DNA of 33,830 nt, from positions 1 to 33,830 of IMG/VR virus record IMGVR_UViG_3300046656_000307. The stretch is one strand, 5' to 3'. The notes beneath the pieces are model-generated. The model did no database searches and had not been told where the DNA came from. It saw only the letters and a list, made by a program, of their open reading frames with translations. Both the position numbers and the translations under genes were made by a program. Each line of letters begins with the position of its first letter. Positions within the stretch are counted from its first letter, which is position 1. The stretch comes from a virus. Below, piece after piece: positions 1,222 to 9,501 of this stretch.

Positions 1222-1544
1222 CGCGTCTCCTGTTCAGCGCGCCAACTTCGCCCGCTCATGTGCGCCTCACTCTGACACTTTGACCCGCTACTGAGCAATA
1301 ACTTTCGTGCGATTTCGCGAGGCGTACATTGGGCACAATCGCTGCAATGGGCCACGCATCCCGGAAAGGAACTCAGCCAATGCGACAAGAAATCCAGGCT
1401 CACAACTTGCCAGACCCGCTTATCTCGCCTCTCTGCGTAAGGGCTCAGAACAGGCGCGCTCTTCGCGCTTCGCTTGGTCTCAAGCAAGTCTGTCAGCGCT
1501 GGCTGGAGTGGCATCCGCTCGCTCCACTCGACAGCTGAATTCAT
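1218..1544 (-). CDS. hypothetical Cys-rich small protein, 108 aa
   Basis: I do not recognise this product. It is supported mainly by context: its ATG overlaps the stop of the gene above (ATGA at 1541-1544), its stop overlaps the RusA start (GTGA at 1218-1221), and its last codons carry the RusA ribosome binding site. Near residue 62 it has the pattern C-x4-C-x2-C-x2-C (CVAHCSDCAQC), a possible metal site. A shorter opposite-strand frame (1380-1538) has a fair ribosome site, so the strand choice is not fully certain. Confidence 0.5.
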   Translation of the reverse strand: MNSAVEWSERMPLQPALTDLLETKRSAKSAPVLSPYAERRDKRVWQVVSLDFLSHWLSSFPGCVAHCSDCAQCTPREIARKLLLSSGSKCQSEAHMSGRSWRAEQETR

Positions 1545-2137
1545 CGTGATTTATCGGCTATACGACAAAGAGCGTGAGCGAATTCAGGCGTGGTAGCCGA
1601 GGATTCTCGTTTTGACAGGACAGGTTTGACTCGATCGAACCATCCAATTTGATGCGTGCCCGCAGCGCGCTGCCACCGCAGCTCCGGCGGAGCGGACCAG
1701 CTTACGCAGTAGAGCCAGGTTCGCTTACGGGCGCGATGGCCGTACGCTGACTGCCAGACTTCGCAAACGTATTCGTTGCGCGCTAGGCCGAGCCCGTCGA
1801 CTGCAACTGCCCACCCTACGCCGGAAGGCTTGGCAAGCCCAAACGCGTCCCACGCATGCGAAAACGCCGGGTGCTCGAGCACGCCGCCAAAGTCCCGAAT
1901 CTTGGCCAGCGCTGCTGCAAAGCACCCGCCGTCGTTGCCCGGCCGGTTGTGCTCGCCTCCGTAGCGCTTGAAGTTCAGCGCGGCGTAGTTCACCCACCTC
2001 GCGCACGGCGGGTGCGCGACTACTGGCAAAGGGCCCGCATACAGCCGGGCATCTTTTTCTTCGCACCACCAATCATCAGCGATTCGCGGATAGATGCCTT
2101 TAGCGTCCACAAAAAGCGCGGCGATTTGATATTTCAC
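1541..2137 (-). CDS. C5-cytosine-methyltransferase-like phage protein
   Basis: The start is GTG at 2137, overlapping the stop of the 47-residue gene upstream, which gives 198 residues; the longer open frame above it is a shadow. The protein has PPC at residues 43-45 (AHPPCARW), the catalytic-Cys motif of C5-cytosine methyltransferases. It also has LEHP at 87-90, where these enzymes have an ENV-like motif, an Arg-rich RARKRTWLYC segment near 136, and a C-terminal RESSATTPEFAHAL stretch like motif X. I do not see the classical FxGxGG SAM-binding motif I at the N-terminus (it reads ALFVDAKGIY). It may be a divergent methyltransferase or a phage relative with another role. Confidence 0.65.
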   Translation of the reverse strand: MKYQIAALFVDAKGIYPRIADDWWCEEKDARLYAGPLPVVAHPPCARWVNYAALNFKRYGGEHNRPGNDGGCFAAALAKIRDFGGVLEHPAFSHAWDAFGLAKPSGVGWAVAVDGLGLARNEYVCEVWQSAYGHRARKRTWLYCVSWSAPPELRWQRAAGTHQIGWFDRVKPVLSKRESSATTPEFAHALCRIADKSR

Positions 2138-2277
2138 ACGCCCAGCTCCGCGTCGTCTTCGAGCATCTCGAGCCACTTGTCGAAGTCGCGCATGTCGGAA
2201 TGGACGCGGATTTGGTGCACTGCGCATCGCGCGAGCCACGCGATCCAGTCGAGAATGAAGTCGATGATGGCCATCAT
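2134..2277 (-). CDS. small amphipathic or membrane protein, 47 aa
   Basis: This short gene is inferred from the sequence itself. It opens with ATG ATG at 2277, overlapping the stop of the sigma-like gene (ATGA), and ends where the next gene starts at GTG 2137. The product begins MMAIIDFILDWIAWLARC, a hydrophobic helix interrupted by two Asp residues, so it is either a marginal membrane helix or an amphipathic one. An acidic tail with KWLEMLEDDAELG follows. Overlaps at both ends support it as a real gene. Function unknown. Confidence 0.6.
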   Translation of the reverse strand: MMAIIDFILDWIAWLARCAVHQIRVHSDMRDFDKWLEMLEDDAELGV

Positions 2278-2720
2278 GACGCCTCCGATAACAAGCTGCG
2301 CAGGTGGCTCTCAAGACCCAACTCACGCGCTGTTCTAAGCGCTTTCTTGAGCGCCGACTTCTCGATTTGCTCCACACGCATGCGGCTTATGCCCATGGCT
2401 TTGGCGATTTCTTCGCGCGACATTCTGCCGTTTTTTGCGATGTAACGCTGCGCAGTCACGTCGTAATCGTACGGCTCAGAATTGAGTGCCGGCCATGCGC
2501 TTTTGAGCGTTGCGCCGAGCTCCCTGCGTAGGACTTTGTCCAGCGGCCACTTCATAAAAATGCGCTGCGCAATCGTCTGCGCCGCAACACCGAGCTCGGT
2601 CGACCAGTCGACGATCGTGCCTTCGCGGCCTTCGAAAGTCAGATAGCAGCGCGTGACGGTTGTCGAACCGCTCTTCTCTTTGCGGCGCTCGATGCCGTTT
2701 GGCTTGTCTGACGGCTTCAT
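2274..2720 (-). CDS. sigma-70 region 4-like DNA-binding protein, 148 aa
   Basis: The C-terminal part (residues about 99 to 128) reads GRMSREEIAKAMGISRMRVEQIE, which matches the helix-turn-helix of sigma-70 region 4. An earlier segment (27 to 63), YLTFEGREGTIVDWSTELGV and onward, resembles the helix-turn-helix modules that accompany phage HNH endonucleases, but no HNH residues are present. The whole is therefore a likely two-HTH DNA-binding protein. By analogy with other phage sigma-like factors it could redirect host RNA polymerase to later promoters; that role is inference. It lies between a coiled-coil gene and the methyltransferase-like gene, overlapping both by four bases. Confidence 0.65.
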   Translation of the reverse strand: MKPSDKPNGIERRKEKSGSTTVTRCYLTFEGREGTIVDWSTELGVAAQTIAQRIFMKWPLDKVLRRELGATLKSAWPALNSEPYDYDVTAQRYIAKNGRMSREEIAKAMGISRMRVEQIEKSALKKALRTARELGLESHLRSLLSEAS

Positions 2721-3047: not shown

Positions 3048-4424
3048 TTACGTGTCCCATCTTCCTTGACCAGTCGGATCGGCGGCGACCTGTCTGTGAT
3101 TACCGGATAGTTTGGATGCGACTTCGTACGTGAACACTTCCAGCAAGCGACCGGAGCCTTGCCCTTTCGGGCCATCAAGTGCTTCCACTTCTCGCTGCAT
3201 GAGCCAGCCGAGGCCAACGCCGCCTGTTTTGGACTTTGCCAGCTCGCAATACACAGGAGCGAAATCGTCTTCGACTTTGCGCCACATCACGATTGCGTAC
3301 TCGGCCATCGCCTCCAAGTCTCCTGACTCGCGGAACGAATGCTTAGTCGGCTTGCGCGATGAATCGCCTTCTTTGGGGCGCTGGAATTGCGACACGACGA
3401 CGATGGCCACTTTCAAAAAAGCAGCGCGCGCTTTGAAGCGAGTGGCGATCCAACGAATCTCGTTTCGCCTATCCTGCTGCTTCTGCGAACAACCGACTAC
3501 GCCGATGTAATCGAGAACAATGAGACGCGCGCCTCTTCGCGCCATCTGAGTCATCTGCTCAAGCGCTTCCCGTTCGTTCATGCCGATGCAATTTGAGACC
3601 ATGAACTTATCGCCCAACGCGGTCATTACCTCCATCGCTTTGTGTATCTTCTTCTCTCCAGGATCGCCTTGTTTGTACTTACGGACTGCGCCAGGGCTGA
3701 TCTCGCCAAGCATCGATATGATGCGCTGTGTGACTATTTTTTCGGGGTCCTCGAAGCTGAGGTAACCGACGCTATCGCCGTCTTTGATTGCACCGAAAAG
3801 CATCTCAAGCGCTACGCTGCTTTTACCGGCGTTCACGTCGGCGCCAATCAGAGTCATCGATCCTTCATCCAAACGCCCGACGATGCGTTTGAGCGCGTCA
3901 AGACCAGGAGACACAGTTCCTTCGTCGGGATTGCGTCCGAGAGACGCAAACCATTCATTAGCGAGTTCACGCGTTGACTTGGGGGCGCGGTCTGCTGGCC
4001 AATCAGCGTTCATCGACTGCGTCGCGTCAAGCGCAGCCGCTGCCAAGTCAGCATCGTTTCCGGCTGCTGCAATCGCTACAGCCTCGGCCTGCGCACGCAG
4101 TTTTCTCAAACGCGTCATCTTGTGCAGACGGTCTATTGGTAGCTTCTTCGAAGGCGCTACGCTGCGCAAGGTTGCGAGGAACGCTTCTCCTCCAACAGCG
4201 GCCAGTGAATCAGTGTCAATTAATCGCGACCGAATGCGTACCAAGTCAACCGGCTCGCCGATCTCAGAAAGCACAAGCATGTGCCGCCACACAAGACGGT
4301 TAGCTTCGAGCGCGAAGTCTTCCTCGGACACGCCTACTGTTTGAATCGATTCTGTGCGCACCAGACATGTCGCGATGAGATCCTTTTCAAGCGCCAAGTC
4401 GTGAGGTTTCCGTGGCTCGTTCAT
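3048..4424 (-). CDS. dnaB: DnaB-like replicative helicase
   Basis: This 458-residue protein has the DnaB length and order. An N-terminal all-helical domain begins ALEKDLIATCL and contains the VGGEAFLATL pattern. A RecA-like domain follows with Walker A GADVNAGKSS (about 194-203), a Glu after the second strand (SFEDPE, about 223), Walker B LIVLDYIG (about 301-308), and VVVSQFQRP (about 343). The late region has RESGDLEAMAEYAIVMWR, where the family has RESG..E. Such hexamers move on the lagging strand and recruit primase. The ATG at 4424 follows the primase stop by one base. It should act with the primase and initiator encoded just upstream. Confidence 0.93.
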   Translation of the reverse strand: MNEPRKPHDLALEKDLIATCLVRTESIQTVGVSEEDFALEANRLVWRHMLVLSEIGEPVDLVRIRSRLIDTDSLAAVGGEAFLATLRSVAPSKKLPIDRLHKMTRLRKLRAQAEAVAIAAAGNDADLAAAALDATQSMNADWPADRAPKSTRELANEWFASLGRNPDEGTVSPGLDALKRIVGRLDEGSMTLIGADVNAGKSSVALEMLFGAIKDGDSVGYLSFEDPEKIVTQRIISMLGEISPGAVRKYKQGDPGEKKIHKAMEVMTALGDKFMVSNCIGMNEREALEQMTQMARRGARLIVLDYIGVVGCSQKQQDRRNEIRWIATRFKARAAFLKVAIVVVSQFQRPKEGDSSRKPTKHSFRESGDLEAMAEYAIVMWRKVEDDFAPVYCELAKSKTGGVGLGWLMQREVEALDGPKGQGSGRLLEVFTYEVASKLSGNHRQVAADPTGQGRWDT

Positions 4425-4425
4425 T

Positions 4426-5505
4426 TCAGTCTTTCTCTGGTCGCACGCGTTCGTAGTTTGCTTTGGTTCCGACGAGAGCAGTGATATCCGATGCGTACTT
4501 ATCTCCTTGAGCATCATCGTCTGTCGCAAGCACGATCGTTGTGTGCCTCGGAACGCGCGCGGCGATGTCGCGCGTGAACGAACCGCTCACGATACCGACG
4601 GCTCCGCGAAATCCGCAGGCCGATACGGCGTCGCTCAACTCGCAGTCAGCGCCACTCGCAGCGCCTCGTAAGAAATCAACTTCCCCCTCAAACACAGTAA
4701 GTCGAAAGTTTTCTGTTCTGTGCAGACCGCGCACTGGACCAGAAACTAACAGCTGACGCCCGAATGTCGCAGCCATAATCAGACCGCGACGATGGTAGCC
4801 GCCACTCGCACCCACTGACTTCTTTTCAGGGTTAGGCGCCACCGATCGTGCCAGTAGACTGCGCATCGTGCCGAGATGATCGAATAGCGGAACAAGCAAC
4901 CTGTGCCCCGTTTCGTTCCATGGTCGCGACGAATAGGTGGCCCACGCCGGTACAACCAACCCAACCGGCAACGCGCGCGCGCAGTCCTGCTCAACTACAC
5001 CAGAGACAGCGATGTCTCTTTTTTCAAGGTAGCCAGTGACTTCCCGGTCCGCGTCAACGGCCACGCAGGACTCCCAAAGCGACTCGACTTGAGAAATCGG
5101 CGGGTAAGCAGCGTCGCAGTTTTCCATCTCGGCCGGGAGTTGGTCCTTGCGGAGCCTAGAAGGTACCTTGGAGCCATCGAAACGCGGCGAGGCTACTCCA
5201 CCATCGAACCACGCCCTAACCTCGCTCCTGCGTTCTTCAGGCAAATCCCGAAACCTTGAACCGCCGACGTGCCAGGACACGAAATCAATCGCGTCGCCGC
5301 TGGCTAAGCACGTGAAGCAGTGCCAGCCGCCTTCGTGGGGCATCCCCACGCTGCCACGTCGGTCGCGAGTCTTGCGATGGCGCCGCTCTTCGCCGCACGC
5401 TGGACACTTCGTGTGGCTGGCCGTTGGCCCGCGTTTGACTTCGTAGCCAAGCCGCTCTGCTGTCTCTGTCGTGAGCGATTCTCTCGCTGCGTCAATCCAG
5501 CTCAC
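4426..5505 (-). CDS. dnaG: DnaG-like phage primase (Zn ribbon plus Toprim)
   Basis: The N-terminus carries a four-Cys zinc ribbon: C34 and C37 (CPACGEE), then C63 and C66 (WHCFTCLASGD), as in CHC2-type primases. The C-terminal half is a Toprim domain with the Glu in VFEGEVDFL (E273) and an acidic strand LATDDDAQGDKYASD (about 327-340), which bind the catalytic metals. At 359 residues it is shorter than bacterial DnaG and lacks an obvious C-terminal helicase-binding domain, as is usual in phages. The start is GTG at 5505, overlapping the initiator stop (GTGA). It makes RNA primers for the adjacent helicase-driven fork. Confidence 0.9.
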   Translation of the reverse strand: MSWIDAARESLTTETAERLGYEVKRGPTASHTKCPACGEERRHRKTRDRRGSVGMPHEGGWHCFTCLASGDAIDFVSWHVGGSRFRDLPEERRSEVRAWFDGGVASPRFDGSKVPSRLRKDQLPAEMENCDAAYPPISQVESLWESCVAVDADREVTGYLEKRDIAVSGVVEQDCARALPVGLVVPAWATYSSRPWNETGHRLLVPLFDHLGTMRSLLARSVAPNPEKKSVGASGGYHRRGLIMAATFGRQLLVSGPVRGLHRTENFRLTVFEGEVDFLRGAASGADCELSDAVSACGFRGAVGIVSGSFTRDIAARVPRHTTIVLATDDDAQGDKYASDITALVGTKANYERVRPEKD

Positions 5506-6386
5506 GGCAAGTTACTCCGGTCGTAATTGTTGAAAGTTGGGTGCGCTCCTGGACGTTCAGCGGGCGATGCCAGGGAAGTTTGCTGCAGCGCGAATGCGAG
5601 GATTACCGGTTTGCTCTCACGTGTACACGCTTGGGCTACGGCTTTTGCGAAACTTGAAATCGCCTCGGGCGCAGTCTTGTACCAGCCCTGGTCGAGCGCC
5701 TGCTGCACCGTCTGGCAGCCGGCAGCCCATTGGGCAGGAGACGCGTGCTGGCTCGTCTTGCCGCGAGCGGTGAACTCGGTCGAGATCGCATCCATGAGGT
5801 GCGGCTTGTGTCGCGCTGGCTCTCGCGATGCCGGAGTGATGGGTGGTGTCACGTTTTGTGACGGCCCGGTCTCCGACGCAGTACAAGCTTCGCTAAGCAA
5901 TGAGAGAGAGCTAAGCATAGAGTGACGGTCCGTGACGATTTCGGTCGCGTCGTGACGTTTCTCGTTTTCACGTGACGGATGCGTCACGTTATGTGTTTTT
6001 TCGTCACTTTTCGTGACGGTGCCATCACGATGCGTTTTGTCTGAACCAGAAGACCTTCTCTCGCGATATTCACGAGACCTTTGCTTGTCGCTCTTCACGC
6101 ACTCCTGCGCATCCATGAATCCAGGTAGCGTGACGCGACCGTCACAAAACGTGACGGTTTTCGATTTCTCTAATATTTCCATAGCTTTGCGTGCTATTTC
6201 CTCTGTACATCCTACATGCAGCATTACACCCTGCCATGCCGGTAAATCGCCAACGTCTAAGACGCCTGACCGGTCGACCTTGCGAAGCAGCGCCATTAAA
6301 ACACACTGGCCATCCCACCCGAGAAGTCTCCAGTTGGTAGTGTCTCTTGTGTACAGACGGACGTAGTTTTCATTGGTCCAATCCAA
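5502..6386 (-). CDS. phage replication initiator / helicase loader (lambda O or DnaD-like)
   Basis: The N-terminal 90 residues (MDWTNENYVRLYTRDTTNWR, then a helical segment and CDGRVTLPGF) look like the winged-helix domain of phage replisome organisers. A low-complexity, charged linker follows (about 95-190), then a C-terminal domain with QALDQGWYKTAPEAISSFAKA. The start is TTG at 6386 with GAGGAG about ten bases upstream; later ATGs would cut the DNA-binding domain. Eleven GTGACG repeats lie inside the linker-coding region, as iterons do inside lambda gene O. Primase and helicase follow directly, so this is probably the origin-binding protein that loads DnaB. Family name is by analogy. Confidence 0.75.
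   Translation of the reverse strand: MDWTNENYVRLYTRDTTNWRLLGWDGQCVLMALLRKVDRSGVLDVGDLPAWQGVMLHVGCTEEIARKAMEILEKSKTVTFCDGRVTLPGFMDAQECVKSDKQRSREYRERRSSGSDKTHRDGTVTKSDEKTHNVTHPSRENEKRHDATEIVTDRHSMLSSLSLLSEACTASETGPSQNVTPPITPASREPARHKPHLMDAISTEFTARGKTSQHASPAQWAAGCQTVQQALDQGWYKTAPEAISSFAKAVAQACTRESKPVILAFALQQTSLASPAERPGAHPTFNNYDRSNLP
5858..6156. repeat. helically phased GTGACG iteron cluster, candidate replication origin
   Basis: Eleven exact copies of GTGACG or its complement occur here. Starts are 5858, 5922, 5932, 5952, 5972, 6013, 6130 and 6151 on the plus strand, and 5982, 6002 and 6140 on the minus strand. From 5922 to 6013 the steps are 10, 20, 20, 10, 20 and 11 bases, i.e. one face of the helix; 6130, 6140 and 6151 repeat the 10 and 11 spacing. 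The copies fall in all three codon positions of the overlapping gene, so they are not a protein repeat. A short T-rich stretch (about 5988-6012) could help unwinding. The arrangement parallels lambda ori within gene O. Confidence 0.75.
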
Positions 6387-7253: not shown

Positions 7254-7457
7254 TCACACCGTTAGCAGATCGATCAACCGGTCGAGTGCGAACCGTTCGT
7301 GAGGCTCGCAAGTGATCCGGCGCGCGAGTAGAACGCCGCGCAAAAACGCGCAGTCGTCGGAGTCGAATTCGCCGGGCTCGTGTTTGCTGAAGCTGGCCGG
7401 CGTCACGCCGGGCACGGTTGCCACCGTCTTCTTGAGGCACACGACGCGTAGAGTCAC
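7254..7457 (-). CDS. hypothetical protein, 67 aa
   Basis: Unrecognised. It follows dnaN directly, with a GTG start at 7457 overlapping the clamp's stop (GTGA). The product has a basic beginning (VTLRVVCLKKTVATVPGVTP), an acidic middle (GEFDSDDC) and an Arg-rich helical end (HERFALDRLIDLL). It is the last gene before the 195-base gap and thus probably ends the upper transcript segment, although no terminator is evident. Confidence 0.55.
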   Translation of the reverse strand: MTLRVVCLKKTVATVPGVTPASFSKHEPGEFDSDDCAFLRGVLLARRITCEPHERFALDRLIDLLTV

Positions 7458-8578
7458 TTCGCCACCTCCGATCTCATCGGCATCACAACAGCGAACGCTG
7501 AAGCGTCGGTCGCTCCCGAGATCGTGGCCGGCGTGAGGTTGTCACCGCACGACCACTTCACATCGTCATCGGTGATGACTGCCAGCGCATCGATCAGGAA
7601 TTGCGCGTTGAATTTGGTGACGTAGTCAGCGGTCGAATCGCACTCTACTTCCTCGCGCGCGCTGCCTTTTCCGGTCGACTCGTTGGTGAGCACGATGAGC
7701 CCGGCCGTGAATGTCATCACTACATTCTGTGTCTTGTCGTCGCTCACAACCATCGTGCGGGAGATAGCGTCACTCAACGCAGCGCGCGAGATGGTACATG
7801 CGATTGCGTCTTTCAGCGCCCCTTCCGAGACCTTGCGCCACGGCACGAATGGCTCTCCCGTAGTTTTCGCTGACAGCATCACAGTGGGCCATTCGAAGTG
7901 CACGTAACCGCCGCTGGCCGTGAGCGTGACTGGCTCGGTCATGTCCGATGCGACGCGCGCGATATCAGCGAGGCAGCGCCCTCCGATCGAAACGTCTTGC
8001 CAAGCGTTCTCATTTTCGATGAACGCGTTCGATGCTGCCGCAAGACGGTTGCCATCGGTCGCAGCCGCCGTAACACCAGAGCGATTCGCCTCAAGGTGCA
8101 CGCACGCGATGTTTGGCCGATCGTCGCCGAACAAGCGCGCGTACGCAGTCTGCTGGATGAGCTGCGCCAGCACGTTGCTTTGGAGCACGAGGCGTGACGT
8201 TGACCCGCTCGACGATGGAAGTTTCGGGAAGTCATCGCCGGCCACGAATGGCAACTTGAACGAGCTCTTGCCGGCCTTCACCTCGAGCCGAGATGCGTCC
8301 TTGGTGAGCACCAGTCGCACGTCGCCAGCTGGCAGTTTCTTGGCCGTGTCTTGCAGCGTGCGAGCGACCAAAGCGAGCGAGCCCGGCGTGGTCACCTCAC
8401 ACTGCGCCGACGACGTTGCGGCGAGCACGAGATCGGTTCCGCGCGCCGTAATCGTGCCGTCTGCTTTCGCTTCGATCAACACGTGCGAAAGCATCGCCAT
8501 CGGCGATTTAGGCGCGGTTGCTGGTACGGCGTGGCTGAGTAGTTTCACGAGGGCTTGCTTTGAAATCTTGAGGTCCAT
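7454..8578 (-). CDS. dnaN: DNA polymerase III beta sliding clamp
   Basis: This is a phage-encoded beta clamp, the ring that tethers the replicative polymerase and other proteins to DNA. At 374 residues it has the full bacterial length (about 366). The signature SFKLPFVAGDDFPKLP lies at 106-121, a second domain has IACVHLEANRSGVTAAATDGNRLA, and the C-terminus AFAVVMPMRSEVAK matches the VMPMR tail of the family, which forms part of the partner-binding pocket. The ATG at 8578 overlaps the methyltransferase stop (TAATG). No phage polymerase is visible here, so it probably serves the host enzyme or recruits phage proteins. Clamp genes are uncommon in phages. Confidence 0.93.
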   Translation of the reverse strand: MDLKISKQALVKLLSHAVPATAPKSPMAMLSHVLIEAKADGTITARGTDLVLAATSSAQCEVTTPGSLALVARTLQDTAKKLPAGDVRLVLTKDASRLEVKAGKSSFKLPFVAGDDFPKLPSSSGSTSRLVLQSNVLAQLIQQTAYARLFGDDRPNIACVHLEANRSGVTAAATDGNRLAAASNAFIENENAWQDVSIGGRCLADIARVASDMTEPVTLTASGGYVHFEWPTVMLSAKTTGEPFVPWRKVSEGALKDAIACTISRAALSDAISRTMVVSDDKTQNVVMTFTAGLIVLTNESTGKGSAREEVECDSTADYVTKFNAQFLIDALAVITDDDVKWSCGDNLTPATISGATDASAFAVVMPMRSEVAK

Positions 8579-9501
8579 TATGCGAACTCCGCGAACATGT
8601 CAGTTTGAGAAGACGTCACGACCGCCTGCAAATTGCGCACTGCCTGCTGGTAATAGGAAGTCTTGAGCTCGATGCCGACGTATTTGCGACCAGCGCCAAG
8701 CGCGCAATGGCCTGTAGACCCAATGCCATTGAACGGGTCAAGTACAACGTCACCCGGGTTGCTCCACAGCTCCAGCGCGCGATCGATGATGTCGAGCGAC
8801 ATCGGACAGATGTGGCGCTCGTCATCGCCATCGCGCGCAGCCTTCGCGTTCAGCGTGCGCGTGAAACTGATGTCAGACCAGATAGGCGATGCGTATCTGC
8901 GCCAGTTCTCATGCGAGAGATTTCCGTGCGTAGGCTGGTCTTCGCCATACCACTTCAGCGGACTATCATGCGTGATTGGCTCAGCGTTTTGCCCAGGTTT
9001 GCGAAACGCCTCAAGGTACTGAGGGATGCCAGCTCGACTCATGGCTGAGTCTTTGACGAGTTGACCATGCATCAATCCGAGACTCTTCGTTCTGGTCGCT
9101 TCGATCAGTGGACACTTGAAAATACAGTGCTCAGAATGCCAAACGAAACCAGCTTCCGTGTACGCGCGAATCACATCGCCGCGAAAATCTTTGAGCCCGA
9201 TGACGCCATCACGCGAAAGCATACTCGGCACATTCATCAGATCGACACACGCAATTCGGCCTGGCTTCATGACACGAAACAACTCCGCGATCACGAAGCG
9301 GTAGTGCTCCCAAAACGCACCATCATCGCGACTGTTGGAGATGTCGCGTGGCGTTGCGGAATATTGGAATAATCCGAGGTAGGGAGGCGAATGAATGGAC
9401 AGATGGATGCTTGAGTCAGGCAGTCCGCGCATGGTCTCGCACGAGTCGCCGTGAAAAAGCGTCCAGTCTTTTCCAGTCGTCTGCTCGATGGCTTCTATCA
9501 C
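8578..9501 (-). CDS. DNA methyltransferase, SPPY type
   Basis: The catalytic motif IV is HSPPY (residues 37-41), and the SAM-binding motif I comes late, DPFNGIGSTGHCAL from residue 255, followed by GRKYVGIEL. This permuted order is that of beta-class N4-cytosine or N6-adenine methyltransferases; SPPY is commonest in the N4-cytosine group, but target and base cannot be read from sequence. No restriction partner is nearby, so it is likely a solitary enzyme protecting or marking phage DNA. The start is GTG 9501 (GTGA overlap). Unusually, the C-terminus is QTDMFAEFA, which matches the clamp-binding consensus QxxLF/QxxMF, and the next gene is the clamp. Confidence 0.9.
   Translation of the reverse strand: MIEAIEQTTGKDWTLFHGDSCETMRGLPDSSIHLSIHSPPYLGLFQYSATPRDISNSRDDGAFWEHYRFVIAELFRVMKPGRIACVDLMNVPSMLSRDGVIGLKDFRGDVIRAYTEAGFVWHSEHCIFKCPLIEATRTKSLGLMHGQLVKDSAMSRAGIPQYLEAFRKPGQNAEPITHDSPLKWYGEDQPTHGNLSHENWRRYASPIWSDISFTRTLNAKAARDGDDERHICPMSLDIIDRALELWSNPGDVVLDPFNGIGSTGHCALGAGRKYVGIELKTSYYQQAVRNLQAVVTSSQTDMFAEFA

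Follow-up and report, generated by a model that had tools for sequence, protein, structure and literature searches.

The window, by which we mean the whole stretch of DNA analysed here, is a 33,830-bp contig of an uncultured virus deposited as an IMG/VR virus record. It carries contractile-tail baseplate genes together with genes for RecE/RecT, a beta clamp, MazG and a DNA methyltransferase. A probable replication initiator gene is followed on the same strand by the genes of a primase and then of a DnaB-type replicative helicase (Table 1). The window also encodes a protein of PHROG_12600, which is 45–53% identical in nine homologue loci and whose position relative to the initiator varies among them. 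No tRNA and no Rfam family was found in the window.

Table 1. Features of the window discussed in the text (rc, reverse complement)
Feature	Position	Strand	Basis or remark
Probable replication initiator gene	5502–6386	-	ORF, 294 aa, TTG start; AF2 model; profile match
Coding region of the winged-helix DNA-binding domain (residues 9–95)	6102–6362	-	AF2 pLDDT, H-H-H-E-E order
Main iteron array	5922–6018	.	GTSAC at 5922, 5932, 5952, 5972, 5982 (rc), 6002 (rc), 6013; 10-bp lattice
Second iteron cluster	6130–6156	.	6130, 6140 (rc), 6151; 10 and 11 bp apart
Distal inverted pair GTCAC-AAAAC-GTGAC	5848–5863	.	10 bp apart
Micro-repeat position	5882–5921	-	Degenerate: TATGC TTAGC ... TTAGC GAAGC
Candidate unwinding element, least stable 50 bp of the 33.8-kb window	6158–6207	.	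Ranked first in nearest-neighbour stability scan
Primase (zinc ribbon + Toprim), next gene downstream of initiator	4426–5505	-	PHROG_47 2e-10; Toprim_2 above cut-off
DnaB-type replicative helicase	3048–4529	-	PHROG_19 3.2e-42; DnaB_C 3.4e-26
N4/N6 DNA methyltransferase	8578–9501		Near initiator
Beta clamp, phage-encoded	7454–8578	-	Upstream of initiator
PHROG_12600 protein	1541–2377	-	Function not assigned

The AF2 model of the probable initiator, computed with 70 homologues, comprises a confidently predicted winged helix at about residues 9–95 (pLDDT mostly above 95 for residues 21–90), followed by a disordered linker and, at the C-terminal end, a small helical part. In a search of PDB structures, the staphylococcal RepA_N initiators 4pql, 4pt7 and 5kbj, the latter a Rep–DNA complex, were found at ranks 1, 2 and 4, with Z scores of 7.0–7.5 that lie below 8 and are not clearly above those of other winged helices. 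CRP-type winged helices come close to these scores, so the fold by itself is no proof of function. Some matches in a viral library carry the names replication initiator and replisome organiser. Alignment of the family profile with that of Firmicutes phage replisome organisers (hhalign, A1 vs A5) yielded a probability of 95.4% and an E value of 1.9e-8, and the N-terminal domain probably belongs, as a profile-level homologue, to the phage replisome organiser/DnaD-like superfamily. The matches to PHROG_186 and PHROG_10469 were weak (E 0.004–0.008). Searched as a single sequence, the window protein matched no Pfam family at E 0.1, including Phage_rep_org_N and RepA_N (PF06970), and it matched no O-like family in PHROG or Pfam, giving only weak DnaD-like loader matches.

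Pentamers on a 10-bp lattice in the probable initiator gene

The hexamer GTGACG or its complement CGTCAC is present in 11 exact copies within positions 5858–6156, all of them where the preliminary description of this DNA had placed them. It outranks every other hexamer of the window for clustering within 300 bp, the runner-up reaching 7 copies. Dinucleotide shuffling predicts 34.3 occurrences per 33,830 bp, or about 0.30 per 299 bp, so that the random expectation of 0.15 given earlier was two-fold too low, without consequence for the result. The core of the iteron is the near-palindromic pentamer GTSAC, and the strand orientation of the sites therefore carries little meaning. Terminator-like palindromic pairs of sites on the plus strand were taken as a by-product of inverted sites and discarded, and the GC skew of the window shows no clear switch at the array.

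The spacings first reported (10, 20, 20, 10, 20 and 11 bp in the main array, 10 and 11 bp in the second cluster) were right, as was the presence of sites in all three codon phases of the gene. The statement that the sites share one face of the helix holds roughly: because the step is 10.0 bp, they precess slowly relative to a 10.5-bp helix. Their assignment to linker-coding DNA is correct for the main array, which encodes linker residues of about 124–155, and for the distal inverted pair; the second cluster lies instead within the winged-helix coding part, at the wing (residues 78–86). Early clusters similar to the latter are found in 7 other homologues, and distal inverted pairs like that of the window are also found in L032, L077 and L088.

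The gene contains 12 GTSAC sites that form 10 pairs at 10, 11, 20 or 21 bp. Permutation of synonymous codons yielded means of 6.5 sites and 1.7 such pairs, and none of 2000 permutations reached the observed 10 pairs (maximum 7), whereas codon shuffling yielded means of 2.5 sites and 0.03 pairs. These results indicate that the protein sequence accounts for some of the sites and not for their phasing.

To collect relatives of the gene, we used a degenerate DNA pattern for YTRDTxxWxxLxW followed by a profile scan, and added three MAG contigs, the only ones with relatives among the genome contigs; one of the 23 pattern matches (L004) encodes a different protein and was rejected. A direct protein search of phage and plasmid records and an exact octapeptide search of viral contigs returned no match. 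Once redundant copies had been removed, 78 distinct genes were counted (the window gene and 77 others), most of them 30–50% identical to the window protein in the N-terminal domain. Among 78 ORFs downstream of homologues, 30 match DnaB and 18 match DnaC-like loader families. The array is conserved in the homologues: four or more GTNAC sites in a row, separated by gaps no larger than 33 bp, occur in 70 of the 78 genes, window included, normally at gene positions of about 340–460, right after the DNA-binding domain. Loss of the repeats from relatives with an intact gene, which the preliminary description had named as evidence against its proposal, is therefore not what we find.

The permutation tests were extended to all 78 homologues. 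They contain 663 GTSAC sites, compared with 387 after synonym permutation and 164 after codon shuffling, and 298 pairs of sites at exactly 10 bp, compared with 30.3 and 0.4, respectively. A further 193 pairs are spaced by 20 bp (18.9 expected) and only 19 by 11 bp. The sites are distributed over the codon phases as 301/216/146 (271/78/38 expected), and the last site of the array falls in frame 0, 1 or 2 in 37, 30 and 3 homologues, respectively, with different peptides as a result. Strict chains of at least three sites number 75 in 73 kb of homologue genes and 0 in 769 kb of flanks. As judged by permutation, the sites are conserved as DNA, beyond what protein coding demands.

Other pentamers are found at the same place and step in some homologues that have no GTSAC array (GTAAC in L031 and L069, GTGTC/GACAC in L068 and L058), and a few homologues are without an obvious GTNAC array (L044, L065, L078, L081). 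Other regular steps, of 8, 9 and 12 or of 7 and 10 bp, occur in L010/L032, L012/L048 and L011/L064, where they often sum to about two turns and where the step pattern repeats inside one array. In L011/L064 and L023/L078, the winged-helix part is followed by a fused domain that, on visual inspection, resembles T5orf172/GIY-YIG; L064 retains a GTSAC array behind this domain, whereas L078 has none.

Neighbouring elements and other initiator families

In many relatives, a 5-bp repeat directly follows the last site on the 3' side of the array (coding strand), in register with the lattice, as in GTCAC TCCTA GCCTA GCCGT GCCTA GCC; the L028 type is an example in which this repeat is strong. The 45 nt after the last site have a lag-5 identity of 0.50, compared with 0.37 under synonym permutation and 0.25–0.30 in control stretches; taken singly, 41 of 70 genes reach 50% lag-5 identity, a value attained by 0.08% of 45-mers drawn at random from these loci. 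No lag-5 signal was detected in the 45 nt on the 5' side of the array in the relatives, and the reading frame of the micro-repeat varies between homologues. As the window copy is degenerate and not significant by itself (lag-5 identity 0.38, a value that 5.4% of window 45-mers attain), we regard the micro-repeat as a property of the family and not as a firm feature of the window phage. Firmicutes replisome organiser genes have AGAGAT-type 6-bp repeats at the same place, after their own pentamers, and the TP-J34 record annotates '7 direct 6 bp-repeats' there; these genes (n=14), retrieved with a consensus probe that served only for this purpose, were assessed by inspection. By analogy with other origins, the micro-repeat is possibly a strand-opening element.

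The weakest duplex of the window directly abuts the second cluster. Across the family, the array region ranks near the 20th percentile of stability (0 being least stable). Low stability in the winged-helix coding part is partly common to all homologues, and some of it may therefore be driven by coding.

We also scanned IMG/VR blindly, without protein information, for five GTSAC at 10-bp steps. The scan returned 99 stretches, of which 80 were examined as loci, and in 23 of these 80 the array lies inside a gene of the window's initiator family. Of the remaining arrays, most of those inside long ORFs belong to other phage genes with a VTxxHxxSxxVT linker. For 19 representative ORFs among these, replication initiation, primosomal, replisome organizer and O-like proteins head the PHROG matches. 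The lattice was thus recovered in several unrelated-looking families of initiator-type genes; simple tandem repeats and non-coding arrays found by the scan were not counted as support.

A candidate replication origin and its alternatives

We interpret the array as a phage origin of theta-type replication located inside the gene of its own initiator, a reading to which we assign a probability of about 0.87. The candidate origin put forward in the preliminary description is thereby supported as the best reading of the locus, in light of the conservation in homologues and of the sequence-level tests. We propose that the winged-helix domain of the initiator would bind GTSAC pentamers in double-stranded DNA, each 10-bp step taking up a single protomer or half-dimer; neighbouring protomers would thereby touch and oligomerise into a continuous complex analogous to the O-some. 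We read a step of 10.0 rather than 10.5 bp as suggestive of direct contact between protomers and not merely of their facing the same way. The complex would strain and open the weak duplex beside the array (6158–6207), and possibly also the micro-repeat tract, and the helicase and the primase would be loaded at the opened DNA. The linker would tolerate this constraint on its coding DNA because its amino-acid sequence would be unimportant.

The array might instead be an operator, through which the winged-helix protein or another phage regulator would control transcription of the replication operon, the origin lying elsewhere. Initiators often autoregulate, and the winged helix resembles CRP-type regulators in structure almost as closely as it does initiators. 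However, the main array is remote from the start of the gene, at about 370–460 bp, a search for promoter-like sites near it gave none, and the same array is present in several initiator families and at the very place of the lambda origin, all of which makes an operator improbable. We deem it very unlikely that the array is the target of another process, be it methylation by the phage methyltransferase, partition, packaging or recombination: although an N4/N6 methyltransferase gene is near in the window and in 13 loci, and ParR centromeres also have regularly spaced 10–11-bp repeats, most homologue loci have the array and no such methyltransferase in the DNA examined, and the array tracks the initiator gene rather than packaging or partition genes.

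We give next to no credence to the possibility that VT-, SH- and RD-rich linker peptides serve a protein function from which the DNA repeats follow. The linkers of the relatives do resemble VTxxHxxSxxVT repeats and about 58% of the sites (387/663) are expected from the protein alone, but a 10-bp step shifts the frame every time, ten-bp pairs are ten times commoner than under synonym permutation, and the last site is translated in all three frames into different peptides. Moreover, the pSK41 Rep is functional with its ori-encoded linker deleted (PMC5703833).

Relation to known origins

An origin inside the initiator gene is of an already known kind. The candidate origin is of the lambda O type by architecture, with repeated sites in an initiator-type gene, an adjacent helicase or loader gene and easily melted DNA nearby. 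In lambda O, our positive control, half-sites CCCTC/GAGGG were recovered at gene positions 350, 360, 380, 394 and 417; the iterons occupy the middle of the initiator gene (positions 349–433), the same place as the array of the window family, and the half-sites within an iteron are 10 bp apart, the same step. The lambda gene likewise adjoins helicase-loading genes and has an AT-rich tract beside its iterons, the single-stranded DNA of which is bound by O (PMC7466680). The two differ in that lambda has four iterons (CCCTC...GAGGG) at 20–24-bp steps and the window many single GTSAC on a 10-bp lattice, and in that the 5-bp micro-repeat belongs to the window's relatives; no sequence similarity of the window protein to lambda O was detected. 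A bare pentamer every 10 bp counts as unusual against the origin reading, lambda iterons being 18-bp units.

The RepA_N plasmid replicons, such as pSK41, whose family of initiators supplies the nearest PDB structures, share the plan of a winged helix followed by an ori-encoded linker: they have a winged-helix N-terminal domain, an ori-encoded central linker and Rep boxes inside rep (PMC5703833). They differ in having four Rep boxes with inverted repeats of 8–9 bp that converge on an A-tract (PMC7145576), in being plasmids, mostly of Firmicutes, and in that no 10-bp pentamer lattice is described for them in the text consulted. In SPP1, the origin-binding protein gp38 recognizes direct repeats that lie within its own gene next to an AT-rich unwinding element, and a helicase loader and a DnaB-type helicase take part at oriL (PMC6316719); this is the same plan as we propose for the window, likened by published description and not by repeat sequence. 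The Firmicutes replisome organisers (Phage_rep_org_N), with an N-terminal domain homologous at profile level to that of the window family, have the linker pentamers GTTAC/GTAAC, GTCAC, TTGGA or GTCCA at 8–11-bp steps, but they differ in having fewer sites, other pentamers and a 6-bp rather than a 5-bp micro-repeat, and in being AT-rich.

We put forward a tentative generalization, which we consider rather more likely to fail than to hold, that many tailed phages across several initiator families use a two-part origin code inside the initiator gene. Double-strand sites, GTSAC or another pentamer, at exactly one per 10 bp would be joined on their 3' side (coding strand) by an in-register micro-repeat of 5 or 6 bp, which either the same winged-helix protein, itself not AAA+, or its helicase-loading partner would read in single-stranded form. 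Precedent for the proposed single-strand role is provided by plasmid winged-helix Reps, which bind iteron dsDNA and the repeated ssDNA of the DUE together (PMC4081077). Our working analogy is the placement of a double-strand array beside single-strand repeats, as in DnaA boxes with DnaA-trios and plasmid iterons with DUE 13-mers, from which the window family differs in that its protein is not AAA+ and its repeats recur with a period of 5 or 6 instead of 3 or 13. Such a code, if true, would correspond in function to DnaA boxes and DnaA-trios, with another repeat length.

A 10-bp pentamer lattice across initiator families combined with a 5-/6-bp micro-repeat was not found in the open-access literature covered by our search, and its priority is uncertain. 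The lattice is a case of coding sequence carrying a strict DNA-level pattern across shifting reading frames. Where the linker-coding part of a winged-helix gene holds pentamers lined up in 10-bp steps, these point to a likely origin, and the origins of uncultured phages may therefore be locatable from sequence alone. Our data also raise the question of how phage initiators that have no ATPase open DNA, and whether the micro-repeat serves as a register for single-strand binding.

Some viral contigs have five GTCAC at 10-bp steps with no spanning ORF (L119, L126, L154, L166, L170, L173, L174, L176 and L187; for example, about 5001–5261 in L209). DNA similar to this ORF-less array is present on the chromosome in 279 of 5426 E. 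coli genomes. In the one copy examined, the array falls within or next to a short hypothetical gene; the surrounding element carries a major capsid gene, an SSB and a RepA-type helicase, and the array is possibly a phage satellite origin. In L175 (7507–7651), about twenty GTCAC form a nearly unbroken 10-bp series within an initiator-type gene that belongs to another family, and GATACA repeats come after them.
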